From Chrysaora quinquecirrha (taxonomy: Eukaryota > Cnidaria > Scyphozoa > Semaeostomeae > Pelagiidae), in contig JACTAT010000012.1 in NCBI GenBank assembly GCA_014526335.1, forward strand, positions 1,211,318 to 1,275,317: DNA of 64,000 nt. Direction: 5' to 3'. The translations under genes and the position numbers were made by a program. The first letter of the stretch is position 1; each line of letters starts with the position of its first letter. This document shows, one piece after another, positions 2,343 through 63,461 of this stretch. Below the pieces are notes generated by a model. The model worked only from the letters and a program-made list of their open reading frames with translations. It ran no database searches and was not told the DNA's origin.

Positions 2343-4069
2343 AGAACAGCACAATTTTTAAAAAAGATTCAGTACCATGAAGAGAGAGACAATTTTACGA
2401 CGTTTCGGGCATTACCCTTTTCAAGTAACGGTTAAATTTAAAATAGCAAATATATGTAATTTGAGAAAAAATTGAAAACGAGGCAAAATAAAGATTTACA
2501 GGAAAAATAAATAAACAAATACTGTGCGTGGATCTATAAAAACGAGAACTGTTTATTAAGTCCCTGAGGATTTAGTGTACCTAGTTTATGAATTATTTTC
2601 TTCTCTAAAGTTTTCCTTGCTCTAGAATCTGATGGTGCATGTGTAAGGGCTTGAACTTTCATGTCGTTGATGGAGTGGTTTAGGGAGTTGAAGTGTTTGG
2701 AGATGTTGATGTCGGCGTCGTCTAGGTGATTCTGTTGGAGGTATATCTTATTTTTACATTTCTGAGATGTTCACCAAAGCGGTTATTCAACTGACGGGAT
2801 GTTTCACCAATGTAGAGGATGTTGCATTTTGAACAGCGAATACAATAGATAAGACAGGAAGAGGAACAGATAAAGTGTTGTCGAACAGTGAAATTAGAGG
2901 AACCAGAAGAGGACTTGATGGATTTGTTGTTGTCGATGTGGGAGCAGGTGTTACAATTGCCATGGTTACAGGGAGAGGAGCCAGGTTGCTGGGCTGATGG
3001 AAGGTTGGATTTGACTAGGAGGTCTCGAAGATTGGTGTCACGACGGTAGGCCAGAAGAGGTTTTTCTTTGAATATATTTGAGGTTTCGGGAGATTGAGTA
3101 AGGATGTTGTAATTCTGCATTATGATGTTGCGGACTTGACGGTATAGTGGGTGGTAGGTTAAGGTAAGTGGAATACGGTTAGTGCTTTGATTATTTCGTT
3201 GTTGGTACAGAGCGTCGTGGCGTGAAATATCAAAAACTTTGGTGAGAGCATTTTTTATTATATTGTCAGGATAACCGGAATTGAGGAAAAAATTGTGCAT
3301 TTCTTGAGCTTTGGATTTGAAATCATGATCATCAGAGCATAAACGGCGGAGGCGAAGGAATTGGGATAGAGGTATAGAGTTCTTGCATTTTGGTGGGTGT
3401 GATGATTTATAATCGAGGTAGCGATGGGCATCGGTTTCTTTGTAATAAATGGACGTGTTGAGATGGTCATCAGAAATGGACAGGTTGATATCGAGGAAGG
3501 ACAGGCCGCATTGAGTTATGTTGACGGTGAATTGCAAGGCAGGGTGGAAGTTGGACACAAAATCAATAAATCTTTGAAGTTGTTGAAGCGGCAGGGAAGA
3601 TGCACCAACGACATCGTCGATGTATCGTAGTAGCAGATCGGGAAAAGGACCGGTATACGACTGGGAGATTAGATATTCTTGATATCCAACAAACAGGCAG
3701 GCATAGCTGGGACCGAGTTTACTACCCATAGCAACTCCTCCAACTTGAACAAAATATTGCGAGTCGAAGAGGAAGCCGTTGGTAGTAAGAACCAATTCAG
3801 CAAGGCGAAGAAGGGTAGATGTTGGGGGGTCTTGTGAAGGTCTGAGATCCAGAAAATGTTTGAGTGCGACGAGACCATCAGTATTTGGAATAACAGTGTA
3901 GAGTGATTTGACGTCCATTGTAAAGAGGTATCTTTCGGAGCCTTGGAAATGGAAGTTGTCGAATATGCGTAGGGCGTCGGATGTGTCTTTAACAGGGTAA
4001 TGCCCGAAACGTCGTAAAATTGTCTCTCTCTTCATGGTACTGAATCTTTTTTAAAAATTGTGCTGTTCT
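2343..4069 (-). mobile_element. Penelope-like retroelement, 5'-truncated, with 76 bp inverted terminal repeats
   Basis: Bases 2343-2418 and 3994-4069 are perfect reverse complements over 76 bp (outer end AGAACAGCACAATTTTTAAA). They enclose a reverse transcriptase with a C-terminal GIY-YIG nuclease on the minus strand. Penelope-like elements are known for terminal repeats in inverted or direct order and for 5' truncation, which fits this layout. The inverted repeat supplies the first codons of the open frame, so that ATG is not the original start. The identical arms suggest a recent insertion or a structural constraint. Confidence 0.85.
2534..4035 (-). pseudogene. Penelope-like reverse transcriptase with GIY-YIG endonuclease, truncated and frameshifted
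   Basis: The minus frame from 4035 shows RT motif A (TMDVKSLYTVIP), a middle block with GGVAMGSKLGP and the catalytic RYIDDVV. It then shows a Cys/His-rich linker (CNHGNCNTC) and the nuclease core LIYCIRCSKCNILYIGETSRQ with the following R and H residues. This order is diagnostic of endonuclease-bearing Penelope-like elements. The RT N-terminus before motif A is absent. Near 2750 a one-base loss in an A-run ends the frame at 2722. The next frame continues as NKIYLQQNHLDDADINISKH and on to a stop at 2534-2536, giving the normal nuclease C-terminus. The gene is inactive as it stands. Confidence 0.85.
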
Positions 4070-10692: not shown

Positions 10693-13513
10693 TTAACTTG
10701 GAAAAGATGGAAAGAGGTTTCTGAATGGTTTCTTAAAAGTTCTAAGGTGGTTGAAAAATAAGACGCAATCATTACCTTCAATATTCGAATTAGAACCTTG
10801 CTGTTTTGTTGACTGAAAATCAGCAATGATACTATTGACAGTTGTTGAGGGTCCCATTGCTATTTGTTTTTCATTTTCCTTTTGGTTTGACATCCATATT
10901 TCACTCCACGAATTTTTAATCAGCAAAAGACAGTCTCGAAACGATGTTTGAAGCTTAGGTGCCTCAGTGTGCTTGGAAAATAGCACCATAATCTTTAGGA
11001 GTGAGCCAATACTCTCTAAAAATGAATATAATAATACCATGACGAATTTTTGTACAAAAAGTGAGCCAGTAGAATCTGCTTGGACGTTAGAAATGAGATG
11101 TAAAACAGAGAGTCGAGAAAGCGTAGAAAAATACCGCACTAAGATAGTTAAGAATAAAATTTTCTATTATAGCATGAAATAAACCACCACATAATGTAAA
11201 AAGATTACAAAATGATCAACAAAATTCATACAACCTTGTAGTTTATCAATTGTATTAATAATCTGCGCCATAGATTCCATAAGTGCGAAGTCCTCATATC
11301 TGCTTCCTTCCTTTAAACTGTACTTTTTTCTCTTAAACTTGCGACGTGATTTAGAAGAATGCCTAGAGTCAATAATACAAATAACAGCAAGCGATGAAAG
11401 ATGTCTGGAAAAAAGGAATCTGTTGTTAATCATACCCACTATCTTAATTCTCTGCAGTACAATTACACAGACGAAGGCGTTTTCCATTTATAACATCGCA
11501 TATCAAAGGGTTGCTCAGGAGAAAAATTTTATCTGAGATTTAAGCATAACAGAGTATTTGATGTTGAGTTGAAACTATTTGGAACTTTTTCAGGTAAAAT
11601 TGTAACAGTCCACCTGCCATTATGGTCAAAGTTTAAGTTTGACTAAATCAAATTTCGCAGCCAATAGTACTGTGCGATGTAGTGCGTTACCATTGTTTTG
11701 TCACATGGCTCTGTTGCTATGTCACACAGAACCAAATTTGTCATTTGCATTAGGTCGACAATGGTCGAAATTTCTGAGCAGATCAATAGCGATTAGATTC
11801 GATTGAAACTGAAGATTCTTGGCGGGCAAGCAAAATCCCAAGCAAAATTAACTTTGAGGGAATTTTCAGTTGGTTTATACTGCTGAAAATGTTCTTATAA
11901 ATATATGGTAAATTTAATTATGTCGATTCATAGTAACTCTACTGGTAGGAATCAAGATAAGTTCTCCTTCGTTAAACATAACTTCGACCAGAAATGTATG
12001 CAAGAATATAAGTTGAACGAGCACGGCGAAGTTGCTTTGATAGAGTTTCTGCGAAAAAAATACAGCGAAATGCTCATCTTAAAATCTCTGCTTTACTTGT
12101 TAATTTACATGATGCTGGTATTTCGTGGTCTCTATGGCATAGTGGTTAGCGTGCAGGGCTCCTCACAACGAGAATTTTGTGGGTTTGAGCAAAGGTTTTT
12201 CCACTTTGATTGCAGATCAAGTTGTTACATTTAGGCCACTTGGAATAGCCTTGGGCAAGTTGTTAACGCAAATGCGCCTCTGGGTGTATAAATGGGTACC
12301 TGCAGCGTACCATTATGAGGGCCGTTGCGCAACTTCAATTAATTATCTTATAGAAATGAATGTTTGAGAAACTGTGTTACTTAAAAATTTTTCTATCTGA
12401 AAACTTTATTTGAAAAAATCAATTCAATTTAGAAAAAATGATCATAGCGGAAAAACGGAAAAATGATGCAAAATATTAAAGTAAAAGTCGTAGTCACGTT
12501 CTTATCCAATTTAAAAAAGCAGCTCTTTGGATTCGGCATTTTTGATTAGGAAAAATTTTCAAGTTTTAGCACTAGATATGATCACTGCTTTTAGCAACTT
12601 GAAATGTGCTAACACGTTAACAACTCGTGGATTTAGTTTTTCTGGTTTCAAATCAATAAGTTCTTAAACATACTGTTGATTAATATAAGCAAATTAACGG
12701 CAGGCTGGAAACAGCATAGTAAAACTTTCACCTACCCTGACATCCTAGATCCTTTTGAGCTTGCAGAAACCGTAGAGAAAGCAGAAACACTGCTTGCATC
12801 TGAGAACAGATCGTTATCACCTTCATCTTGGTAACCATCTTCTGAAAATAACACAGCAACGCAAATTATATATTACGCAAATTACTACGCAAATTATATT
12901 TTACGGTAATATGTTGTTCATTATGCTAGAGCGATGATTATTTCATTTCCGTTATATTTGTTACATTGTTACATTATGTTACATTTTTTTATCTGTTATA
13001 AGCTTTGAAAAAACCTAGATTTACAAGTTTAACGGCTACTTTGTCATCAAGCCTTTCTTTGCTTGCTTCAATCATGGACAAAATTGTCATTGACACCTAG
13101 GCCCCCCAGTTCAATGTTGATTTGTTTCATCCACATCAGAAGTCACAAATCCATCATGCGGGTGACAATGTGTTATTAAATCCATGAAAAATTACAACTA
13201 TTGAAATGGGGGGGGGCAAAGACATGGACCCTAAATCAACATGATGGAGTACTTGTCTCAACATATTTAATGCATGATTGTACAATCAACAAGGATCACT
13301 TAAGAATCACAAAAAATGACTTGATTATCAAAATACCGAGTGATTAGAAAATAATAAAGATTTTTCGTGATTACAATTTGCATTAAAAAAAAAACAAACC
13401 TATTCTTTCAGAAGACTGTTTCTCTTTCAGAACTCGAACGACCATAAGCCTCTCTTTATGGTGTATAAAGCGTTCACTTAAATCTGCAATTGTGTCTTGA
13501 TAATGATTGAAAG
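10693..13513 (-). CDS. ELP1: ELP1 exons 30-33: C-terminal region and stop
   Basis: Exon 13400-13513 (FIHHKERLMVVRVLKEKQ), exon 12736-12841 (NDLFSDASSVSAFSTVSASS), exon 11235-11362 (KSRRKFKRKKYSLKEGSRYE, then DFALMESMAQ) and final exon 10693-11015 (LQTSFRDCLLLIKNSWSEIW, MGPSTTVNSIIADFQS). The basic KRKKYSLKEGS block lies in the C-terminal basic region implicated in tRNA binding in the family. The final tail after ADFQSTKQQ diverges from the usual C-terminus. Either the exon reads through to the stop at 10693, or a donor at GGTAATG near 10785 leads to one more exon that I did not find. Donor GTTGTA at 11235 is weak. Confidence 0.85.
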
Positions 13514-16500
13514 CTGCAATGGAAATTTAAACTATACGTCTGAATGTAATAAAAGCAGAACAAGAGTTGGCAAGCGAGGAAACGTTTATACTAAACAGAT
13601 ATGGAATTAGCAATCAAAGTTTATACGAATCAGCAGAAAATTAATCCGAGGAAAAAGGTTCGAAAACCATTAAAGGGATCAAAGTATTAAAGTGCCTCTT
13701 GACTAAAAAATTTTTTCATCCAGAATCGTAGTTTGAGACACGCTGATAACGAATCTGCAATTTAATTTTCGAAAGGGTGCATCAAAATCGAACTATTGGG
13801 GGTTTTCTGGTGCCCCTTGTTGATTCGGGACCGGGTTTTTAGTAGCCTGGTACCGAGTTTCTCTGACGTCATACCGGGAACGCACTCATAGCTCATTTTC
13901 TCTCTCGACTCTCGGCTAAGGAAAGTTAGGACAGTTGTTTGTTTCATTCGAGTTTTGTCATGTCTTCGTCTGGAAGTGATATATCGCAAGCTGGAGATAG
14001 CTCTAGTGATAATTCTGGTTTTAATTATGCCTTGGAAGCTGAAGAAGACCAAGATCAAGATGTTTTTGCTGGCGCTGAGGCAATGGGAGCTCAATATGAC
14101 CCATCTGGATACGAAGAAGGACCACACAATTTCGACCCTATTGCAGATGACGAATTTCTTTTTAATTACGAACGAGAGGTAGCAGATAGAGAAGAGGCGG
14201 ATCGACAGCTTCAAAGACGTTTTGATGGAACTGAACCCCTAGTATCCTGGTAAGAATCTTTTTATCTAGATTTAATCGTTATTCATGACCGACAAAAAGC
14301 AAGAAATAGCCAGTATCGGCCTTGTGTTAGAAAAAGATAACAGCCTGGACTGGGCTGGGGACTTCCTTCTTAGGTTTGATATAGCTAGATACACAATTGT
14401 TCATAAATTTGTTTTTTATTACCAACTCATTCAATTCAGGTGTAAATGTGGACGCTGTTCATTAGAAGAGTTATCAAATGCCAAGGAATGCAAATGTTGC
14501 ACAGAAATTGAAAGCTGTATGGTTGCTATAAATGATGCTGAAGTGGTTGAAGAGGTTGGCAGTGTCGTAAGTTGTGTGACAGAACATCCAGGTTTCTCAG
14601 CTGTCTGTTTAAACAAGTGGAGTCTGCGTTTGGCTGCTGATAAATATAAAACTAGGCATGGAAGAAGATATCGTCGAGCTGGATTTGAAAATGAGTAAGT
14701 GCTATTTGCCATATCATTTGAGATTTTTGGATGTCATTTTTTCTTCACAAACACGCTGTCAATTTCAAAGTCATTGAAATAGTAGGAATCACTGATCATT
14801 GTTTATTTTACATACTTCAGTAAAAACATTAAATATTAATTTCTTTTAGTTTTTTACGGAGTGTATCATACAGAGACTTCACTCGTCTCATACATGGCTA
14901 CCTTGGCCACAACCAAAGAATTCCTTTGCCAGCTTGTGCATATGTGGCCATAAGAAAGAAGTTTCCGCTAGTGGTTGGAGAAAAAACAGGTTTTAGGGAA
15001 GAAGCAGACTCTGAATAGATATCTCGTAAGTAGGTAAGTATAACATTTATTGACTTATATATTTAATGTGAATCTACACGCATGATTAAAAATTATCAAA
15101 CAGTTCCAACAATAGATACCATATTAGTTTGATTTGGAGCCTTCTTTTACTAAACCCTTGAATATAATGCCTGGCTGGTCTTTTAAATTAACAAAAAATG
15201 GTTTTTGACATGCTGACTGTGATTTGTTGTCATCAACTTAACCCTTTCACATCCGCACTCCTAAGGCCATCAACTCCTGCAATCCGCATTCCCTGAGCAT
15301 TCCACAAGGATGAAACTGACTAATTTCAGATCCAGTTTTCAACAGTAAAATGCACTCTGATTTAAAAATAATCCAAACAGAAAATATACAGAAAGCTTTC
15401 AAGTTTACAAATGAAATATTTTTGATGATCTAAAGTTCTTTTTTGTCCGCTTCTATCGAATTTTTCAGCAGAGGTCCTAAAAATTTGTTCTTTCCTTTTC
15501 CCGCTTTGAGGCGCCTTGCGAGAAAGATTCAAAATGAAAGTTTCAGATCCTTCTTTCTCATCCGAATATCAAATAAAAACATTTCCACCAATTCTAGCTG
15601 CATTTCTTCCTCAATTTATCAACAAATTATTTGTAAATACTGCCAAGTCACTGAAAGCAAAGCTCTAAAACTCGAAGGAACGATGTGGCCTAACCGCCAT
15701 TACTTCCGCGCTGAAAATAACAGACAAACTTTGAACAGGTATTGCTCCAGTCTTTCATATAGAAACATATAGAAGAAATGAACCAATCGGATAGAGCTAA
15801 ACGGGCCCTATTGTTTCCTATACAATAAAGAGCCATTCTGTCATTCCTTATTTAGATTACTGCCCTTTTATGGGAGGCACCCGGAAAACACGAAAACGTG
15901 TTGGCGGACGTCAAGGACATTCAGATCAAAACACGAAAACGTGTTGGCGGGTGTGAAAGGGTTAATTGATATGATACTTTGTTGTTATGGTGGGACTGAG
16001 TATTTGGTAAAGTTGTAAGTATATTATAAACAAGGTATTTTCTTTTGTTCTGTGGCTAAGAGTACCTTATAAGAGAGTATGTTATATCCAAATTATACTG
16101 TATACAAATACTATAAACCACACAGATACCACATTACTTTTAATACATACTGGTTTTTATAAAGACTGTTAAGTACCAAAGGTCAGAGATTTGAACTTAA
16201 GACTTTGAACTACTTATTCTTTGGACAGTCTTTGATCTTCTTGTGTCCTTTCATAGGGTTTTTGCAAACAGAGCAACATGGTTTTGATCTTTGTTGACTC
16301 TTAGATGTCTGCAATTGATTTACTACAATGAAAAATCATTGGGAATAAGTGTTTGTCAAGAAGACCAATTAGAGGACTATTTATGATAAAGATTCATCAA
16401 AAGTGGAGCAAATGAGCCAATGTGATTTTACCTGGCATTGTTGGAGGTACATTGATAGGAATCAAAGATTTTCGTGCCCTGTGAGTTTGAATTGCAGTGG

Positions 16501-19500
16501 CAGATGATTCTTTGGTGAGCATCGTGTTCATAAAAGATGGTGTGATTTCGTCAAGTTCTGCTTTGGCAGTTTTCAATCTCTCTGGTGTCTTGATGGTATT
16601 AAGAACAAATGGATAGATATCTTCTACATAGTCTAGAAAAAAACACAGATTGTGTTTAACATTCATGATTTTCAAACAGTTGTTGGACAGAATGACAAGA
16701 CTGAGCTTATTGAAACAAACAGTGCTATTAAAACTTACCAAAATTCTGTGCTACGCGGACATCTCTAACTGTTGCCATCCCATTTTTAAACTTTGGATAG
16801 TCTACTTTGACACGTTGAGAGCCATCAATCTTCTTCTTAACTTCACGATTTACATTATGGTTGAAGAGAATAGCAGCCAAGGCAATTCTGTTGGATTTTG
16901 ATAGAAACAAAAATATATACAACTTGTATAAAACACAAGGAACACAAAATTGATACTGAGAATTTCATCAATTTGTTTCAAATGTGTGCCTCACCTGCAG
17001 TACATGCCAGGATATGAATAGCAAATCATCTTTGGGGCAAATTGATTGAGAACAGAGTGGAAACCTTCCAAACAACTTGTTTGTGCATCATTAGACACCT
17101 GTTTAATACCCTTCAACAGTCTCTTGTCAGTTAATGCTTTGGAAAGTTTTTCATATGGAACAGAATCTGTGAATAAATTCATTTGTTATGTACATTTAAT
17201 ACTGTTGGAATCTGGAGCAGATGAAAATCAAAGACAAAAATGCTGAAGTGAAGCTTAGCTTCCTATTTTTTACAGCTTGCAGTTCACATGTAGTAGGAGC
17301 CACAGTATCAGAGAAATGCAGAGTGAATACAATTTATTTTGATTGTCCCAAACTTCATCGAATTAGTATTGAAATGCATATTCTAGCTTATCATCAAGAC
17401 ATCCATGTGATAATGATTGAAATAGCCAAAGGCTCACCTTTCATTAACCATTTCCGTTGAGCAATTGGACCATGCACACATTTGTTAAAAAGGGGATTAT
17501 CAGGAACTTCGTGTTTGTTAACAACATGACTCAGGAACACCTTGAACTTGGCCAGTATAACTTCACCATTTTCATCTGCTGTTGATGTAGCACTCCAGTA
17601 AAGGTGATTAACACATGACCTGATCCATTCCTTTATTGAATCGCAGCCTTTCTCCTTGCCCAGTTTTGTTAAAACCTTGTTGATTTCTGCAAATGGATAG
17701 ATTAAGATGTCTTGGTTGTGCTCAAAAGTTAAAGGAACAAAGATGTTTTAACTTTGAGGTGAAAAGATTACTTACTTTTTGCAATATGCCAGAGGTCGAA
17801 TCTGTGCTTTATGCTGGATTTGTTCTCTTTCATGAAACTTGCAATGGTGGCATGCCTGTCAGAAACAAATTTGTTGATAACTATTTCATGACTTTCAAGA
17901 AATTCCAAGCATTTTTTGAATCCATAGAACTCCATCGCATTGCTGCTTCCAGCCTGATTTCTCTGGACAAGATCAAGTGAACAACAGCTGATTGTGAGCA
18001 AGAGTACATCGAGTAGGCACCATACTTTGCATTGTGGCCCATATTGTCATGTCTTGCATCTCCAGCTAATACTACAGGTTCTTGGCTCTCTTTTAAAATA
18101 TTTACAAGGTTTGACTGATAATCTTTCCAGTGGAGATATACAGCCGGGAAGAGCTTTGTCTGTTGATGGAAGAAACAGATATTGTAGGTTTAAAGGCAGT
18201 ATGTACTTCAGAAATTTTGCAAGTAGATCAATGTTAAAATGCAGAAAGACTCACAACCCCTGAAATAATGGAATTGTATTTGGAAAAGTGAAATATTACC
18301 CTCTGATGTTTGAAGAATGTTGCCAGTGTTATTGAGCTGATATTCATGTGCTTGAAAATCTGTACAACTTTCGAAATCGAGCCTCCAGCTAGAAGGATGG
18401 ACATGCTTAGCAGGAAATTACCAGCAGGAATTTTTGTGCCTGGCATCTGTGGTTGACTTTTCCATGTGTGTTGTTTCATGCATCTTGGATTGATACAAAA
18501 TGACTTCACAACAAGCATCGTTCCACATCTACTCGCCTCTAAACTTGGATTGTCAGACTTGCAAATTTGACAGAATTTAAATAGCATCAATATCTGAGTT
18601 AAGAATACAATGAATTTTGGTTCTGTTCGCAGATTTCCATCTTTAGTTACCATTCTAGAAAGAAAGATTGCATAAAGTTTGAACAGCTGTTCATTGTAGT
18701 GAGTAACAAGGTCTTAATTGGTACACACATAAATTATGCTTTGAACTTACTGTTCAGGTTCATCTTGATCACTATCTGAATCAGTTTCATCCGAATTATC
18801 AGAAGGCTCGTAACATGGCATTTCCTCATCTTCCATTTCAAACTTATCCTCATCCATGAAAACACTTTCACAGTATTCATCACCAGAACTTTCACTTGAC
18901 TCACTGAGTGGCAAAGATTTTACAGGAGACTTCTTTTTGGTGACTTTTTTCTTTTGAGTTTATTCAGTCTTCCTGTTGCAGGAAAATTAATTAAAAGGAT
19001 AAAGAAAGAATAATTTTTGTACAAAGTTACTAACTAATTGTCATGAAAACAGCAAATGCATGGGGTAAAAGCAAGTGAGCAAGTGAAATATTGTTAATTG
19101 TTTAGAAATTGATCAATATTCAAACATGTATGTCTGTAGAAATTCAAAACAGAAGGAAAGCTGTCCTTACTATTCAGTGTTCGATTCTTTGACTTCTGGT
19201 GTGCCAGCAAAACTCTAAGAGTAATTATGCAATTTTTTGCTTTCCGGTTCGCCTCTTTCAAGGAAGTACATTCAGCACATACAGGAACGTCTTGCTGCTT
19301 TTTTGGTGAATGTTTTCGTGGCTACGAAGCAATATATATAGATTACGAATAAATTGAATGAATGAATATGTGTCATCCATTCTCATTGTAAGGAAATGGA
19401 ATGCTCAAATTTGAACAAAATGACTTCTGGAAGAAAATTTCAGCTTTGACTATAATTAAGAAATTCTTTACAATTTTTTAGTAACTTTTTCTAAAAAACC

Positions 19501-22500
19501 CTTGTAAAATTTTGAGAAAAGATTATTATAAACAAAGAACATATGTTTTTTCTGGATGACTTGTTTCTGCTTAATATGTTACTTTATTGAGAAAAGAAAG
19601 TAGACATACAGGTTCATCCACAATGGGCATGGGCTCTGCGTGTGTATCATCAATGCCAATATCTTCCAAAGGAGCCATTTCTTCGTCATCGTAATTCTCT
19701 CCCTCATCGTAATTTTCTTCCTGCTGAAGATCTTCGTTTGCTGCTGGGCCGGGGCCTACTGATTTTCTTGACTCTTTGATTATCTGCAGCAAAAAAAAGT
19801 AACTTTTTAGATCAAACTGCATTATTATTTTACCTACAGAGGTAAGTCATTTCGTTTTAAAATTTATTCTAATAAATAAAGAATACAAAACAACAATTTT
19901 TTACGGATACCCTACTTAGGTCGATAAAGACTTACTTTCTACGTGTTCGCTCTGACATATTTTCATTTTCTTCTCTTCCAGTTTCCAATTCCAAAATTGT
20001 AGGGAACGGGACTACTCCAATTTCATCTGTTACCAGCCTTGGGGTTCTTCCAGGAACAAATATTTGTCTCGTGAAGCAATCCTTGGTAAAATGTCGAGAA
20101 CAAACCACAGCATGTTTTGTTGGTTGCCACCGATCACTTCTTTTCGATTTTATAAATTTTATCCACTTCTTTCTCCTTCTCTTTGCTTCAGGACGATCAT
20201 CGTCGAAAAATGGAATTGGATGAAGCGCTATGCCTCTTTCCTTATCAGGATTGTTATTACAAGTTGGCAGAATACACCTTGCCGGCATCGTGACAAAAAT
20301 CAAATTTCCCACTTTTTACTTTGCATAGCTGCCCTGCGAATGAATTTATTCGTTCCCGGTATGACGTCAAAGGTGACTCGCCCCAGGTTTTTACGTCATT
20401 CATTCCACTGCGCGGTCGTGAACCACAAAAGATTACGAAAACAGCCTAATTTCTCAAGTTTGGTGCGTCATAACTCACGAACCACACCTCCGATTGAAAA
20501 AATTTTTTCGATTTTGAAATCAGCAGAAAGGATTCATTCAAAATCCGTCGTAATATTTTTTAGTCAAGAGGCACTTTAAGAACTGTGACGAATCATTTAA
20601 GGAAGGAATATTTCACATCACACCAAATAAAGATAAAAGGAAAACAACATGTAAAAGAACGAGAGACCAAACTATATCAATAATATCGCCATAAATCCTA
20701 AAAGACTTCACCCACCCTCGATTATTGCCGGTATCAGGTTTGTTTCTATCAAATCCTTTCTATCGAATCGATATATCTACGAAAAAATTAAAGACATATG
20801 TAGTCAACAAAAATTTCAGTAACACTGTGAAGGTAAAGGTGAAATGGTGTATTTAGCACCAGTTGCTAGGATCTCAGTTAGTAGGTCAACTGATCGAGAC
20901 CTCGACCCTGGGTGTGAAGCCGATGTAGCTGGGACTCAAAACCCCCTCGCAGAAAAGATAACAATGTAGATAATATTTCTGACACCACGAATCAGCTTGA
21001 TTAGACCACAAGACCACAGCAATTCATTGTTATTAACTTGACATAAATATCTCCAGGAAACTCTGCTACAAAGGCTTATGTTGCCCAGTAAACGAACGCA
21101 GAACACCAAGAAAAGGATCTAGAAATTATTAAATAAGATTGCCCACAAGAAAACATTCGTTAAAGAATACCATGCGGAGTGAGTCTTCCCAAAGATGACC
21201 ATCAATACAGGCGACAATCGCAGATTCATAATCCTGGGAAAAAGAAACAGAAACTTTTGATAGGATAAAGTTTCAAGCTAGACCCTATACACACAAAACG
21301 GGTGGATGCATACGACAGGGAGGTTTTCATACTTGTGTAGTAGAAAAGGCTTCCAGGGGCGAGTTATTATGGTTCATGTGAATTGTTATACTTTATAACC
21401 ATTTTATGCTAATTCATACACAGTAATAACCTGCCAATGTAAGTCTTATCCACAATATCAAGCATAACACACCGCTCTGTTGCGGATATCAACTTTATTA
21501 ATGAATCTACGTTCACTAGCGTGAGTCTGAATGAATCATACGCTTTAAGAACAATATTGTTTAAAACCTAGATTCGCTATGATTTATATCAACGTCAACA
21601 AATGTCAATGCTGACGCAGCTGTTGAAAGAAACTTTAACGGAAAATTTAAGCTTTTTACGAAGAGACTTAATTTCTAAGCCTGTAAGTAATTTCTCTGCC
21701 TAGCTGTTCATTGACTGAGCATGATCTAGAACAGCAAATAAGAACATTTCGACGGTGTTTAGATTACCATACAAAGTCTTGGCCTGAGTTGGTACCTCAA
21801 AATAAATTGACATCGAGTAATATTTAATTACGCTACGCTCTCCACGTGTTTTGAGCTAAGAAATTTAGTGTTTAAGAAATCTTGTAGTTTCTTTGGATAA
21901 TAGGAGGTATTTATTCAAAGATAAAGTGGTGAGTAAATAGTTGATAATCTGACTATTCTTGCCTGGTTATAAATTATTTGCAAATAAGAACAATTCTCAT
22001 TCATCGAATTTTCGAATTCGACATCGTGGTTAGGCCATTCTACTACAAACATGAGGTCCCCAAATGTTAAAAAAGTACGTTTGGGCTCAAACATGAAAGC
22101 TTCAAAAGCAAATTTTGTAACAGATTTGCGTTTTAACACCTATAATAGCGGAGGTAGTATTTCTCTACCAAGCAAAGAGATCTCCATCAAGATGATTGAA
22201 GCTTGTGATCTCAGGTACTACCACGACCTGGCTATTTCAGAGACATACAAAGATGCCATTCTTGTCCTGTGGGAGAATGGAAAAGGTGAAGCCCCACCTC
22301 GAGATGTCCAAGACTGATTTGAATACTCAAAGATAAAGCAATTAAAACTTGAGTTACATTATAATGAGGGCCAAAACAAATTTCGTAAAATCCTCGGGAT
22401 AACCTTTCATCTGACAGGCCAGAAAAACTCAGTTGTTGTGTCTGCCCACACTGCCCACGACTGGATAGATTTTGAATTCCCAATCATCAAAGATCTAATC

Positions 22501-25500
22501 ACAATGAAAGAAAAGGGAGCAACGAGGAATAAGTTAATTCAAGCATCCAAGAAAGAGAAATTTGCAAAGCAAATCACTTCTAACCCTCAAAAGAAAGGAA
22601 AGCTGTCCACAATTTATTTTGATGACGAAAAAAATGAGGAAGTGTCCCCCTGCGGAAGTTCGGAAGTCAAAAATCCTGAAAATTTGATAAAAGATACTGA
22701 TAAACCTCCTGCACCAACTTCCTCTATTGCTAAATATCCAAGTTATTCGGAAGATTCTTCTGATGACTCTGATTTTAATACTGAGGGCCCCTTCTTTTCA
22801 AATAGCCCAAAAGTATCCAGAGTTCATTTTAAAAATATTGAGCCCAACCTTAAGAAATTGATGAAAGAGAATGCCGAACAGAAAAAAGACAATGTAAGCT
22901 TGCAATATAAGATCGACCATTTGACTGCAAGCTTGCTTGAACAAGAACAAAAAATCGAAATTCTTTTTGAAAAGTAAGCATGATAGAATCAAACAAGAAG
23001 AGCAAAGAGGTCAAATTGCCCGCTCAAAACAAAGAGAAACCTGCAGAACCTGAAAGTCAACCAGAACGTCATGCTCCTACCCAGCTGAATGTATTAAATG
23101 GTGATTCCAACCATTCCCAGGAATTTTCCCCTGAAATCGAGAGGAGAAATGTGTTCACTGATGATTCAAAGCGTCCCTGGTACAACATTTGCAAGGATTA
23201 CAACAGAGGAAACTGCACCAGGAGCAATTGCAAGTTCATACATAAAACAGTGAATGCATGTAGATTTTTCAATACAACAGCAGGTTGCAAAAAGGGGTTG
23301 GAGTGCAACTTCTTGCATATAAGGAAAGTCAATGGCAGAAACCAACCAACAACATCAAACAACCAACAATTTCCAGAACAAAATCTGCAGTCTTTTTTAG
23401 AGAACACTTTAGAGTCCAAGCTGACCAAACTACTGCAGCCTCTCATCAATCATCCACAGCAAACGACCATACACCCCAACGCCACCTTCCATTACCTACC
23501 ACCCCCAACAAACACATTTCAGACCTATCCTCCCCATTCGCCTCAACAAGTTTACGAAATCCAAATGCCAGCAGCAGCACAACCAGCCCTATACCCTCCA
23601 CAACAACTGCAGCAAGTAACAAGCAGAGCCTAAAGTGCGTTTATACTAATGCAGATACTCTAAGTAACAAGCTGCCTGAACTTGAAATTAAGTTAACTGA
23701 AAGAAGATTAAATCCATCTAAATGTATTTTAAACTGTTTATATACAAATGCAGACAGCTTAAGTAACAAAAAAGACGAGTTAGAAGCCAAACTGTACCAA
23801 TCGAGGCAAGACATATGTGCAGTAACTGAGATTCTACCAAAACATAGTAGCAGTAACTGGATAGATCAACATTATCGTATAAAAGGCTACCAAATTTACA
23901 CGAACCTTAGCCATGCACCGTCGCGTGGTGTTGCTTTGTACATAAAAGAAGGATTGATAGTTAAAAGGATAGAAAGTGTGAACTCGATGATCGAATCAGT
24001 TTTCGTAGAAATAAAGCTTTTGAATAATGAGAAAATCATTTGTGGAGCCATATACAGAAGTCCTTCAACCGATAATCACGAAGCCATAAGAAATCTGATA
24101 AGAAATGTCTGCAGCGAAAATTCAAGCAACAGGATACTTCTCTTTGGGGATTTTAACTATCCTGAAATCGATTGGAATAATCATTTTACATGTACAGATG
24201 ATTCACATCCTGCTTATCAGTTCCTGGAAACAATTGATGATTGCTTTCGTATACAATGCATTGACAAACCAACGCGCCATAGAGTAGATCAAACATCTAA
24301 TACACTAGATCTGATTTTCACCGATGATCAAACTTCTATAAATAAACTTAAATTTGGAGATCCTTTAGGATCAAGCGATCATGTCACAGTAGAATTGGAG
24401 TACATAGTCAAAGCAAAATTAGATTACAATCAAAGCTCTGATACAAAACGATTTGCACTAGATCGGGGAGATTACCAATCAATGAAAGATGACCTTAATA
24501 GTATAGATTGGGACAAGGAGTTCCAAAGAATGAGTACCAATTCTATGATGACCTTCTTTGAATCAAAACTCAATGAAGTAAGTGAAAAGTTTATTCCACA
24601 GTTTCCTGCGGACGCCAACCCAGGAAAAGGAAATCAACCATCGTGGATAAATCACAAAACATTACGTGCATTAAAAAAGAAACACAATGCGTATAAACGT
24701 TGGATGAAAACCAAAGATGGTAAAGACTATCAAAAATACAAGCAGCATCGGAATACGTCGAAAGCCCAAGTCAGAAATTCAATTTTAGAATTTGAAAAAA
24801 GAATTGCTCAAACTATTAAAAAAAGCAATAAAGGATATTGGAAATATGCAAACTCAAAATTAAAAAGTAGATCAAAAGTTCCTGATTTGAAATTAAGGGG
24901 AGAGTCGTATACTTCGAATGACCAGGAGAAGGTTGATATTTTGAATGATTTCTTCTCTTCAGTTTTCACAAATGAGGACTTAAATAATTTGCCTGAATCT
25001 CCGACACGTATCTTTGGATTGAAACTTGAAGATATTGAAATTACAAAACCGATTGTCTTGGAAGCGTTAACTTCACTAAATGGTTCGAGATCTCCAGGAC
25101 CTGACGCTCTCCATCCCAGAATACTCAAAGAATGTGCTACAGCTATTGCTTACCCTTTGTCGTTAATTTTCAAATCAAGCCTGGTCTCTAGTGAACTTCC
25201 AACGCACTGGAAATTAGCTAATGTGACACCAGTTTTCAAAAAAAGGGAGCAAACATAGTAGGGAAATCTATCGTTTGCAGAGTAATGGAGAGGATTCTCA
25301 AAAATGCTATCGTTAATCATTTAGAAACAAATAGCTTATTTTCAAACAGTCAGTGGGGGTTCCGAGGAAAAGATCTTGCGCCTCGCAGCTCTTAAAAGTA
25401 TTCGAAGATGTAACTGCCTACATAGATGAAGGCCACTGCGTAGACATGATATATTTTGATTTTGCTAAAGCTTTTGACTCTGTGCCTCATGAGACTCTTA

Positions 25501-28500
25501 CGCAAAATAGAATCGTATGGTATTGGTGGGAACTTTTTAAAATGGATTAAATCATTTCTCAGAAATCGCAAACAAAGAGTGATATTAAATGGTTTTAAAT
25601 CGAACTGGAGTAACGTTGTAAGCGGAGTTCCACAAGGGAGCGTATTAGGCCCGTTGTTATTTCTGTTATATGTGAACGACCTACCAGAACATATTGAAAA
25701 TTGCAAGGTTGAAATGTTCGCTGACGATCTCAAAATTTATTCACCTCATGTATCAAATGATGATAAAATTCAATGTGATATTTTCAATGTTGAAGAGTGG
25801 TCATTAGCTTGGCAACTCCGATTAAACAAAGAAAAATGTCAATTTCTGCAATTAGTTGAAAAGAATACTGATCAGACGAGTTACTATTTAACCGATGCCA
25901 CGATAAACTCATATGTACCTATTTCGAAAGTGTTACACGCTAAAGATTTGGGAGTATATATCGATGAAAATTTAAATTTTGATAAACAAGTAGCAGAATG
26001 TACAAAAAAGGCAAATGGTATCCTAGCGTCAATAAAAAGAACAATTAAGTTTATAAACTGCGTTACTTTTAAAATGAACTTCCAGCTGACATAATCAGCT
26101 CGCAAACAGTTATTAAATTCGAAGAATCGTACGACAGACACATGGGGGACAAAAAATTTATAGTCATTTGAGAAATTTAAATAGGGCTACATAGGCTATT
26201 TAGCCTTTCCTACCCTTATAACTTTATATTATATTATAAATTGCAGGAAAAATAAGTTTTTTGAGAATCGGCAAAAACAAGGCCTATGGCTGTTCTTTCA
26301 TTGCTAAACCAGAAAATCTACAGAATAACACACAAATAATACCTAATTTCGTTGTTCATATTTACTCACAATCCTGGCCAAAATTCACAGAGACTTTGGC
26401 AGAAAATCTACGTGCGACACAAAACTTGTTACAAATCTTTAGGAATAGGAGAGCCCCCCTCCCCCCTGGGAGAGACGGCTTCGACAAAGCAGAGCTGCTT
26501 TAAAAGCTTCAAAGTGTCTCCATTATTTTGGCCAAGATTGTACCAGCAACCATTTTGAGGAAAGTTGCGCAATACTTTTCAAGGCTGCAAGAAAGAGGCG
26601 CCAGAGAAACATGAAACTCAAGCTAGACTTATTTTTGCAAAATTTTTTAAATTTGAAACCAAAATTTAGCACAAAATGTGAATACCTCTGCATAAACTTC
26701 CAACAAAACAGCAGCCTCATCCCACCGCTTCATTTCTTGTAACTTCTCTGTAACAGAATTCGCTACATTGTAATAAGAGTCTCATCTTGCATTCAATCAG
26801 TAACGTAATTGTTATGTGGAAAACCTAATTTCTAACCTCACTTTGCGCTACTTAAGTTTAAATCATTTCTACAGTTATAAATTTTTAATAGTTAATATCA
26901 AGCTGCACAAAGTATATGGCCTATACAAACAAAGTATATGGCCTGTGTGTAAAATGGTGAGCAAATTATGCGGAGAAATGATGCCATGGAAATCTATATT
27001 CAGAGACAGATCTATGTACTTAAAACAATCCTTTCTTCTCAAAGAGTAAGAATCAAAATTGATTAAACAGAAATATGCGTTAATTGGCATATTTAACATA
27101 AATTAGGCAACTGTTTCTTTGGGTAAAGAAAAACTACCTGCCATGTCTTTAGCTAGTTGACAAATCTTCTCTTTCGAATACTGTAATTTCGAGGCCTCAC
27201 ATAAAGCAAGTTTCCATTTGACGCATTTAACAAAAGAGTCAAGTGCTTCTTGGTAGAAACCAACACGAGAGTATACTGTACAAAGAAAATTGGCAAATAA
27301 AACAATTCAATAAAAGGAGTTTTTTGATAAAGATTTTAACTAATTATAATGCATAAATAATTTCAGTAACAAAGAAAGAATTGGAAAACTGTATCTTTAA
27401 TTGTTACCCTATGGTCAAGGCCGTAACTCTGTCATACAATCTGATTGGCTGAAAACGTTCGAATGCGACAAAATGATAGGGCATTATTATACGGTAATGC
27501 CCGCTCATTACGTAACAAATCGAATTCGAATTTGTACGACGTTTAGAACGCAGTTTCGTTGTAATGGCTTCATGTGCGACTCTTTGAAGACAAAACGGGA
27601 GATTTGTAAACATTAGGGATCATGGCCATGCCCTGTCCAGCCCTGCCTATAGGGTAATAAACCTCGCAAGCTCAGTTTTGCACTGACGGCTTTGGGTTAA
27701 TATTTTCTGGTATTGCCCTGGGAAACAGTTATTATAGGCTTAATACAGCAAGCCTGAGAGAAGCATAGCATATACAGAAGAGAGAAAAAAAATGAAATAT
27801 GAAACCTAAGCCAGCTTCTTCATAACACTTTTTCTTGACAAGATTAGATCCATACAAAAAACTGACACGCTAGAAAATAAACGATAAACACACAACGTAA
27901 ATAATGTTGCGTGTTACAGCATGCAATGTAATTGCATAATCTTAAAGGGTTTAAGCAAAACTATAAACAATACCAAACAATAGAGCTTTTCAAAGAGGTC
28001 TGGCTTGGCGTGACATTTTTCTGGAAGATGGAGGACATCTTGAGTAATCCAATCCGAATGCAATAACCGGGACGGTCAAAGAAAGGTAAGTGCAGCAAAC
28101 TTTGCTTCAAATTGTGGAAAAATGGCATTTATGACTTAAAATGTGCAAAATATCTACAAAAACTTTGGAATAAAGATGCAAGTAACTCATAAAACGGGAA
28201 ATACCTGATTAAAAGTCACCTTGTGCAGTTAAGCTAGGAGTTGAATCCTTCTATACTTTTTCTCCAATTAAATGTGAATTTGAAGCAGAATGTACTGCAC
28301 TAGCTCCACTGAGGCCAATTGAACCCAGGTCGTGGCATGCGGATATGATTTGCTTACCCAAGATGCCTGCCATCTTCCAGAAAAATGTGGTGCAAAAAAG
28401 ACCTCTGCAAAGGTGTATACCATAGACTAACAAAAAGTCGTTATCAATACACAAACATAAAACAGAAGGGAAAGCAAAGAAGTAAACAACGATAAAAAAT

Positions 28501-48700: not shown

Positions 48701-51700
48701 ATATCTCCATTCGTAGATATCTCCATTGGTTGTTGCAACAATTAATATATCATCATCAAGAAAATTTTCAATAGCAATTATTTCACCATCATTGATGCTT
48801 GTTTGGTTGAATATCTGAAAAAGAGAATATTATATAAATATCGCAATGAATTGCGGAAACACAATAGGGAATACCTAAAAGCTTGTTTACACGCAGTACT
48901 GACAATTCCTGATGGCGAAATTTAAGTACTCAATATTTCTTAGCAATTCCTTAACTTTTTACTTTTTGATTCTTCCAAATAAACAATCTTCAAGGAAAAA
49001 TAGGCCGGAAGACGAATAGAAATGAATATGATTGAAAACCTTGAATCCTAAAGCTTTTGCCTATCCTAGTACCACATTCCTTTAAAGCACTTCCTTGTAG
49101 AAAAAATGCGTGTACTCTGATACTCTTCAGAGTCGAAACATCAGAAACAGACGGAAACAAGTGACTGAGATTAGATTTGTAAGTGAAGTCATATTGGGTT
49201 AATGTTTTTCACACCGATTTAGTTATTGAATACAGCTGGGAGTGAGTTATTTCGGTCTGTTTCTGAATTTAAAGGCTTCAGAACTAAGAACAATCGACGA
49301 TTATTGCAAAAATAGACAATATTTGACACCCGTGTCTGATTTGGCACTGACATCAACGTTAAAAAGTGTTGATCTTCCGGGTTTCTGTAAAATCAAAAAT
49401 GAACATAATGAACAAGAAAAACAATAAAATAAAATAAATGAACAAGAAACCAATGGGACCGATCTTGTTGTCTGTCCGGTGAAGAAAGGCGTCGGTTGTA
49501 TATCGAAGCGTTTTTACAAGTAAATGTCCTTTGGCAAGAAAATATTTATCCTCTTTTACCAGGTGTCCACTGTATAAATGTGTCCGTTAATGGAAATCTT
49601 CTGCATTAAACATCCTTAACTACATACTCATGGGCCAGTTAATAAGCAAGTAACTTGATAAGAGTTTGAGGATACTGAGATAGATGTGGAACGGGCCTTG
49701 AAGTAGAGAGAGAGAAAGAAAGCAAAAGCCTCTATGCTAAAAACAAACGCAATGGCGTTTTTAACAGAAAATACAATGATTCGAAACCAAATCCTAAAAC
49801 AGTAATAACAGTTACAAAGAAAAATTCAATGACGGTTCTGGATGGAATAGGGTGGAAAGTAACTTTGCTATTCTGGAGGAGATAGAGAAGTGAGCTTACA
49901 GAAAGGTGAGACTCAACAGTAGCTAATGTGAAAGGGTGTTTAATTTCTGCATGCGTCATTATAAACATTGAAGTAAGCGCAACAGGTAAATATACGCATC
50001 AACCGAAGCATCTTCTCAAACATTTTTAAAAACTGAGATTCATCTCTCAAGTTCGAGAACACTGATAGTGCGTTATCGATTTCTAACAAGAATTCAAGCA
50101 AGAGTACCTGTTTGGGTGTCAGCAGACAACGTTAAGATCTAATCCTCTCCTATCCCATGGTGGTTTTGAAAAATTTCAGATTATTTGCTGCCTCCTGACG
50201 TTTTTTGGCCCAAGAAAATCGTGTTAGTCAGAATGACTTTGCATAAGCTGCAAGGATTTAAACAAAAAGCTTCAACTCGCCCGAAATATTCTAATTTTGT
50301 GCTTCATTTCTCACAGAAGAGCGAAGATCATTCACTAATCTTTAAGTTTTTAAGTTTCATAAAGCATGCCTTCTGTATGATAATGCCTTTTTTCCCATGC
50401 AGGATAGCTATATAAGTAAAAAAATTCATTACACGAACACTTTTCCTCAAGACAGACTTCAAGACAGGCTTTGAACTCAGAGAATCCAATAAGACCGATC
50501 AGCTGATGTTGAAAACAGATTGAAACATGATTGCCAACAATTCAACTGTTGATGCTAACTATATGAATTCATGCAATGAGACTGTGGTAATTCATAACTG
50601 TATCAGAAACATTCCTGGGTTAGTGGCTATTTTCTTGGCAATGATAGCATGTCCAGTGTATGTTCTCATGTTTAAGATTCTTGTATATCATTTCGACTTG
50701 ATGGTCCCTCGTCACAAAATATTGCTCAATTTAAACATCTCTGACAGCATTCAAATAGCCGGAATGGCGATACTTTCTCTATTGGGCTTCATTTTCCAAG
50801 CAAATAGCAGATCAGCTGGATGTCAAGTCATTCGAAAAGTCATGGAATTTCTGGGCATTGCAACCGTTGTTAGCTCAACTGGGAGCATTCTTCTGCTATC
50901 TTTTGAGCGCTACATTGCATGCGTTCACTGCCTGAGATTATATGACATTGTCACAGATAATCTAGTACACAGAGCCATATACTGCATATGGGGAGTTGCC
51001 TTCATCTGCGGATTGGCAGACAAAGAAAGATACCAACCGAATTACACTGTTGTGGCCTTGGTTCTAACTAAATCAATCAGCATCATATACACCATTGTTG
51101 TTCTTTCAAGCACAGTTCTCCTCGCATTTGTTCAATTTCGCTTGTATCGGTTGTCTCATATGAAAAACAAAGTTCTCCCTGGCGACAGCTTCGGAAGAAC
51201 AGCAGAAGAAAATGACACAAGAAGAACTCAAATGAAAGCTGCAATTGTTGCAAGCGCAGTCGTTTTGATGTATGTGATATGCATGTGTCCATTGGCATTT
51301 TACAGTATATCAGTAGGTTTCAATCCAAAGAACGATGAGTCGGCATTCAGACTATAATATGTATTATTTTGGAACAAGTAGACACTGTTGTTGATCCTTT
51401 TGTTTATGGATATGGTATGGCTGACACGAGAAAACAAATGATAAAAGAGCTGAAAAAAATAAAAAACACTTTCCTAACCATGGTAGACAGAGTTCGCTCG
51501 GGCTTACATTGATTGCTTTATTTTGAGGCCGCCCCATTAGAGTATAAGGGGAATGGGATATTTATAGGACAAATCAAAGGGATAAGGGATAATTCTAGAC
51601 AAAATAAAGGGTATACGGGGATATTTTTTTTAATTCTTGGGATAAGAGGGAGAAAGCATACGGGGGACATGGGATATGTTTAGCAAAATGGTAGGAGATG

Positions 51701-62594: not shown

Positions 62595-63034
62595 GAATTC
62601 AAAAATATTCAACATTGAAAAATTCGTTTGCAAAGTTCTTTTAATTTTCGGTTCCTTATAAACTGGTTCGTTATTATAAAAAAAGTGTTTTGCAGGGCTT
62701 CATGCAGAAACTGCATTAAACATATTTAATCATTGATTGTGACGTAATGTAACGATACAATGATTGTGACGCAATAACTTTATTTATCAATAATTATTAG
62801 GTGCAGGGCATCGCGACTGAGCTCAGAAAGACGACAAATCTAACCAGAAGAAAGTCTCTTTTCCGGAAACGGAAAGAGTTTCAAGATAAAGAAGATAACA
62901 AGAAGTGTACATTTCAACCAAAAAATAGAAAAACGACGGTTGAAATTCACAACAGAGGTGGTGAAAGGAGACGATAAACAGTAAAATTCAATTGAAACGA
63001 GACAATACACATGTAAAATTCAATTGACACAAGA

Positions 63035-63421
63035 ATGGAGCCCAGTAGTCAAACAGCATCAGTTAATTCAGGGAGTGAATTGGTAAAAGAGAGATTCCTA
63101 AAGAATGAAACAAAGAAATCTGGTGAGAATGAAACGAAGAAATCTGGCAATGATAAATCAGATGCATGGAAAATGTTTAATGCACAAAAGCAAGATGACA
63201 GCACAAATGAAAATAACGATGATAAATGTCGATATTGTTTTGGTGGACCATTTTGCTGGGTTGTAAAGCAGCAATTGATTAAACCTTGCTGGTGCTCAGG
63301 ATCTTTGGCATATGTTCATAGGTCATGTCTAGAGAAATGGTTAACAATACGAAATCAAAGCACTTGTGATCTATGCAAATACGAATTTGTAACAGAGAAG
63401 AAGTATAAACATATCAAAGAA
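63035..63421 (+). CDS. MARCH-type RING-CH E3 ubiquitin ligase, first coding exon
   Basis: It starts at ATG 63035. A charged N-terminus contains a short repeat (NETKKSGENETKKSG). The RING-CH (C4HC3) domain follows: CRYCFGG, LIKPCWCSGSLAYVHRSCLE, KWL, CDLCKYEF. All eight zinc ligands and the Trp after the His-Cys pair are present, as in membrane-associated MARCH2/3/8-like ligases. The open frame could run on to 63454, but KHIKE|GTAAGC at 63421 is a good donor. The expected two transmembrane segments are absent here, so they are probably encoded in later exons beyond the window. An intronless cytosolic RING-CH protein is the alternative. Confidence 0.8.
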
Positions 63422-63461
63422 GTAAGCTCTTGTAGTAGAAAATCAAAATATTAACATTGTT

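Follow-up and report, generated by a model that had tools for sequence, protein, structure and literature searches.

A window of 64,000 nucleotides (the whole stretch of DNA analysed here) from the scyphozoan Chrysaora quinquecirrha contains, inside a DNA transposon, a short gene for the "ballast" domain that is familiar from the P2X7 receptor. The question that this locus raises is whether the gene belongs to the transposon and, if so, what it might do there. The preliminary description had put forward the pairing as possibly undescribed, and had suggested from it a transposon route to the P2X7 tail. Both the pairing and the route are supported, but they had already been published. Elements of this kind have been known since 2022, when the ballast-domain protein encoded by the Kol0 lineage of Kolobok transposons was named KolX and when P2X7 was described, in the passages of that paper available to us, as the product of KolX joining a P2X4-like gene, the receptor's tail being derived from KolX (Kojima & Bao, 2022; PMC9587614). 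What is new here is a count of the KolX-transposase pairing in one genome, together with direct sign of selection on KolX. The features of the locus, in window coordinates, are:

13687..20579, no strand: whole Kolobok-type transposon including the TTAA at each end; inverted ends, sibling copies elsewhere in the genome
13691-20575: the same transposon minus its two TTAA
13687..13714, plus strand: left terminal inverted repeat including TTAA; 28 nt, with 96% complementarity between the two ends
13861..13882, plus strand: inner inverted repeat with TGACGTCA, which ends about 90 bp ahead of the KolX start codon
13960..14249, plus strand: KolX exon 1, acidic N-terminus; GT-AG borders, open frame
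14440..14694, plus strand: KolX exon 2, with most zinc cysteines; open frame, Pfam P2RX7_C, alignment to P2X7
14850..15018, plus strand: KolX exon 3, LPxC...IRxxFP and stop; open frame, alignment to P2X7
15237..15966, no strand: nested 730-bp TTAA element; at least 26 further genome matches (from scoring 40 of 179 candidates); a sibling has the empty site
16200..17687, minus strand: stretch with transposase exons G to K, approximate limits
16996..17167, minus strand: transposase exon H, motif LEGFHS
17774..18159, minus strand: transposase exon F, motifs GDARHD, SDRH and DLWH; frameshifted here
18298..18654, minus strand: transposase exon E; its Mutator-like profile match falls below cut-off
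19936..20288, minus strand: transposase exon A, THAP domain; THAP profile E=1.1e-12
20351..20372, minus strand: mirror copy of the inner repeat with TGACGTCA, which ends about 70 bp ahead of the transposase start codon
20552..20579, minus strand: right terminal inverted repeat including TTAA, 28 nt, 96% complementary to the left end

KolX and the transposase gene converge within one pair of TTAA-ended terminal inverted repeats, and the original placement of the ballast gene between Kolobok ends, convergent with the transposase, is borne out by the 28-nt repeats and by the minus-strand THAP gene. The window copy and two siblings keep the TTAA target-site duplication expected of Kolobok at each end; among the other siblings the left TTAA is lost in one, the right is altered in one, and one was read at its left end only. 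The terminal sequence starts AGTGCC and the termini are AG...CT, that is, the 5'-RR...YY-3' required of Kolobok (PMC9587614). The transposase gene has multiple exons; read on the minus strand, it begins at 20288 and extends to about 16200. The Kolobok signature is a DDD/E triad with a C/DxxH motif and a zinc finger ahead of the E. The GDAR, SDRH, DLWH and LEGFHS motifs of the window gene, read by eye, probably represent the Kolobok catalytic residues D, D, DxxH and E, and the profile matches of the exon pieces are only weak ones to Mutator and MULE, below cut-off. Exon F, frameshifted in the window, is open in a sibling copy; exon D has an uncertain border and a stop near its start, and how exons A and B join is likewise uncertain. 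The transposase gene of the window is broken, while KolX beside it stays open.

The nested 730-bp element at 15237-15966 has its own TTAA ends, with CCCTTTCACA at those ends, which look piggyBac-like. At the same position a sibling copy has an empty site with a single TTAA, the 730-bp insert being absent. The nested element is a separate, later insertion and not part of the Kolobok transposon's own design.

Elsewhere in the window, a reverse-transcriptase-like frame with a terminal GIY-YIG domain (2722-4050), presumably Penelope-like, has a near copy, judged by eye, that adjoins the KolX of another locus (L015). At 22318-26094, frames for CCCH zinc fingers, an endonuclease and a reverse transcriptase likely belong to a non-LTR retroelement, and a DUF4371 frame at 55396-56448 is likely the relic of a hAT-type transposase. 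Further frames encode a rhodopsin-family receptor (50524-51357, a 99% match) and a RING-variant domain (63017-63454), and at 10693-11163 an ELP1 helix-bundle profile matches weakly, short of the Pfam cut-off, which may be due to chance or to a host exon next to the insertion.

The three KolX exons join without a stop across GT-AG borders to encode 237 aa, an exon model from genomic DNA that upholds the one first described; an alternative acceptor at 14862 likewise keeps the frame open. Intron 1 falls at the identical codon phase in the window's family (F1) and in a second family (F2), the splice sites having been chosen by eye. The P2X7-type domain, the acidic N-terminus and the lack of membrane helices in the preliminary description are confirmed too. 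Pfam P2RX7_C scores 25.6 bits (cut-off 23.5) over residues 92-231, and the seven zinc-site cysteines of P2X7 align one for one (C98, C100, C103, C116, C117, C123 and C211) in the pattern WCxCxxC, CC, C, LPxC; from these conserved cysteines a zinc site is predicted. Residues 1-95 include 25 acidic and 5 basic ones, KolX has no membrane helix (maximum 19-residue hydropathy 1.17), and the features of a P2X receptor, two membrane helices and a P2X domain, are absent from the window protein. When a structure model of a 52%-identical KolX relative was compared with Foldseek, 14 of 15 matches were P2X7 chains (probability up to 0.96), and the modelled fold is that expected of P2RX7_C. Against solved structures the single window sequence found no match, and the KolX profile found P2X7 at no better than E 0.16-0.38. 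NCBIfam has no family matching KolX, and the viral contigs searched for relatives yielded 14 pattern matches and zero true relatives. The named KolX relatives are all animal, the nearest cnidarian and those further off from echinoderms, amphioxus and fish (120 of 141 matches listed).

The guanine-nucleotide site of P2X7 (R546, H547, R574, R578, K583) reads R, S, Y, R, L in the window protein, two of the five residues being retained, at the R546 and R578 positions; the RH pair of this site is also retained in the KolX of F2 and of a third family, F3. Since the site is, in the passages available, not retained in all vertebrate P2X7 (Rump, 2020; PMC7016195), it is not a family-defining feature. 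Nucleotide binding by KolX is possible but unsupported; since P-element transposase uses GTP, the possibility is of interest.

The genome searched is the window's own, one genome of 328 Mb in 740 contigs, in which copies are assembly places and not independent insertions (flanks are shared within L012/L014, L031/L032 and L023/L025). In the element-DNA search 40 of 179 candidates were scored, so that its counts are lower bounds. At least six further long copies of the F1 element were found. Five of these span the KolX and transposase halves, one of the five with large gaps, and the sixth begins at element position 3275, without KolX. The worry voiced at the outset, that no other Kolobok copy might carry the ballast gene, is thereby removed as far as one genome can tell, both halves being present at least partly in five of six. 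Further matches at 77-81% identity cover transposase parts only. The left flanks differ among the six F1 copies read, which indicates separate insertions. KolX was likewise read in six F1 copies: the window and one sibling encode an identical, stop-free protein of 237 aa, and each of the remaining four is interrupted by one to three stops, two of them having gaps too.

How often the two genes occur together, as the preliminary description had asked, can be stated for this one genome. Pfam P2RX7_C has 26 genome matches in 24 loci, from which the window copy is absent because it is split into exons. All 24 have a convergent partner on the opposite strand less than 5 kb away, namely the Kolobok transposase core at 14 and the THAP exon alone at 10, the weakest partner being that of L015 (31% identity). 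Within the limits of this one genome, the other refuting case named at the outset, a ballast gene of the host that stands free of the transposon, thus gained no support. Paired TTAA repeats were found at 14 of the 24 loci: eight of F2 (six pairs inside the fetched stretch, two after sequence was added), four of F3 and two of a fourth family, F4, which share flanks. Together with the window's family, such repeat pairs are known in F1, F2, F3 and F4. The other ten had no TTAA repeat pair in the stretch fetched (at five F2 loci a single end was seen, and five others had no pair).

A search with the KolX protein, in which 150 of the 364 candidates were scored and 150 of the resulting 159 matches clustered, gave 107 loci; one with transposase exon E, with 150 of 194 candidates scored and 150 matches, gave 142. 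Both are lower bounds. Exon E lies within 8 kb at 66 of the 107 listed KolX loci, with a convergent partner at all 66, against a chance expectation of about 0.7% per KolX locus; a partner on the same strand only, or divergent only, was found within 8 kb at none of the 107. The other 41 of the 107 lack exon E at this distance, and 36 lack it even within 15 kb, 11 of the 36 being F2 places. From the transposase side, a listed KolX lies within 8 kb at 66 of the 142 listed exon E loci and at 76 there is none, the figure for the 60 best exon E matches being 46 with a KolX neighbour at this distance. The two genes are thus not always found together, most clearly when counted from the transposase side.

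Selection on KolX can be gauged against a sister family at L047, which has an intact KolX of 238 aa in three exons (C171:307770-308928, with a convergent exon E at C171:311273-311623), its splice sites placed where they gave the closest match to the window protein. Between the two KolX genes dN is 0.279 and dS 1.82, giving a dN/dS of 0.15 overall; the N-terminal part gives 0.42, and the ballast part has a dN of 0.189 with saturated synonymous sites (pS 0.765). These values show strong purifying selection on the ballast domain between the two families. For the dN/dS check first suggested, across copies, the numbers within families are small. Among eight F2 copies the variable sites are 7 synonymous and 9 nonsynonymous (P=0.058). 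A trio of young F1 copies, picked after the data had been seen, has 4 synonymous changes along with a single stop (P=0.014), and all 15 pairs of F1 copies give a pN of 0.0285 and a pS of 0.0507. The within-family signal is weak, and dN/dS at this level was dropped as proof of selection because the changes are too few. In older F1 copies KolX decays freely. A fair reading is that selection acts on the lineage that transposes, and that copies decay once inserted.

The F2 family also includes elements that have KolX but no transposase core. Its KolX has 230 aa and is whole in eight of the 12 copies read (a thirteenth, L013, was excluded, its KolX being truncated), and seven of these eight have lost the transposase core through internal deletion. 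The derivatives L013, L016-L020, L022, L024, L026 and L027 hold KolX and the THAP exon, minus the catalytic core, and represent about three deletion types. As they were found through KolX, the fraction that retains it is biased upwards.

The inner repeats bear on how the two genes may be expressed. TGACGTCA occurs at both ends of F1 and at the left end of F2, the right end of which has TGACGTAA, with one mismatch, and in both families these positions are upstream of both genes. They could be promoter-like sites, such that each end drives one gene. TGACGTCA is missing from the ends of the two F3 copies examined, which weighs against a general promoter rule.

Collectively, it is very probable that the element is a KolX-carrying Kolobok of the Kol0 kind, in which KolX is the transposon's own second gene and encodes a selected accessory protein that works with the transposase or regulates it. 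KolX would be a soluble, zinc-stabilised protein, expressed from a left-end promoter, that helps transposition succeed by working with the transposase or by influencing the transposase's expression and the DNA ends. The purifying selection between families makes a role in transposition more likely. On the published view, as far as the available passages go, the ballast tail of vertebrate P2X7 would then be a captured KolX domain (PMC9587614).

Other readings of the locus differ in where they place the gene's function. KolX might act on the host rather than in the chemistry of transposition, countering silencing of the element or tuning its transcription. An acidic N-terminus joined to a zinc domain would suit a regulator, and an intact 230-aa frame persists in seven F2 elements without a transposase core, but those derivatives are young and their retention of KolX is biased by the way they were found, and there is no known host target, so that we regard this as possible but rather unlikely. 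A bolder proposal is that KolX, as a cofactor that binds nucleotides and zinc and acts in trans, controls whether Kolobok transposes and is worth keeping even to transposase-less elements, with KolX-only derivatives spreading as selected units; the P2X7 ballast would then be a reused transposition regulator, from which its guanine-nucleotide binding would originate. We consider this proposal as a whole quite improbable. That the window copy is already a domesticated host gene might be suggested by an intact KolX beside a broken transposase, but a sibling copy elsewhere encodes the identical 237 aa and the intactness fits recent insertion, which leaves domestication very unlikely.

DNA transposons do capture genes, and a host ballast gene could have been carried as a passenger by one copy. 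Its presence, at least in part, in five of six other long F1 copies and in four families, its place beside a convergent transposase or THAP exon at all 24 Pfam loci and the strong purifying selection between families speak against this, and on copies, pairing and selection the idea was rejected as exceedingly improbable. piggyBac also uses TTAA targets, but its ends are of the CCC type and those of the window element begin AG; no piggyBac profile matched the transposase exon pieces scanned, the DxxH motif suits the Kolobok signature, and all seven cysteines are present in the window KolX, most of them being missing in reported piggyBac versions. On the ends of the window element (AGTGCC) and the absent profile match in the exon pieces scanned, a piggyBac origin was rejected, its chances being slight in the extreme.

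The element thus favoured, a Kolobok with KolX as its own second gene, bears on the receptor as well. For the ballast of P2X7, no job of its nucleotide and zinc sites is yet known to us. The transposon relatives of the ballast offer many natural variants, a strict two-gene setting and a selectable activity, which makes the ancestral job of the domain testable.

In the literature, PMC9587614 alone was found to join KolX or the P2X7 ballast with transposons or transposable elements, and nothing was found that joins the P2RX7 domain, a transposase and THAP; on Kolobok transposases together with P2X, a review (PMC9319628) came up besides. The available passages of PMC9587614 are silent on gene orientation, per-genome copy counts, selection on KolX, mirrored promoter-like sites and KolX-only derivatives; the word "THAP" is absent from that paper, as is any word beginning "transpos" from PMC7016195. 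Like Kol0 elements with KolX, as described in the passages available (PMC9587614), the window element has a TTAA target, 5'-RR...YY-3' ends, a transposase probably of the DDD/E type and a second protein with a seven-cysteine ballast domain, that is, it encodes KolX, and those passages reveal no defining difference. Its placement as a Kolobok of the Kol0 kind is by features and to that extent provisional. With the P2X7 ballast (P2RX7_C) the window KolX shares the WCxCxxC, CC, C, LPxC zinc motif, IRxxFP and the GF tail; unlike P2X7, it has no channel or membrane segment and only two of the five guanine-nucleotide residues. The ballast domain has been reported across animals as one or a few (<10) genes per species, in the passages available (Rump, 2020; PMC7016195), whereas in this animal it is a mobile-element gene at at least 107 assembly places, far from such a small host family. 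The Nanor-like proteins, which we liken to KolX by their description alone, are likewise short, free-standing ballast proteins; in the parts of the literature available they are proposed to be domesticated host genes (PMC9587614; PMC7016195), whereas the window KolX sits in a mobile element.
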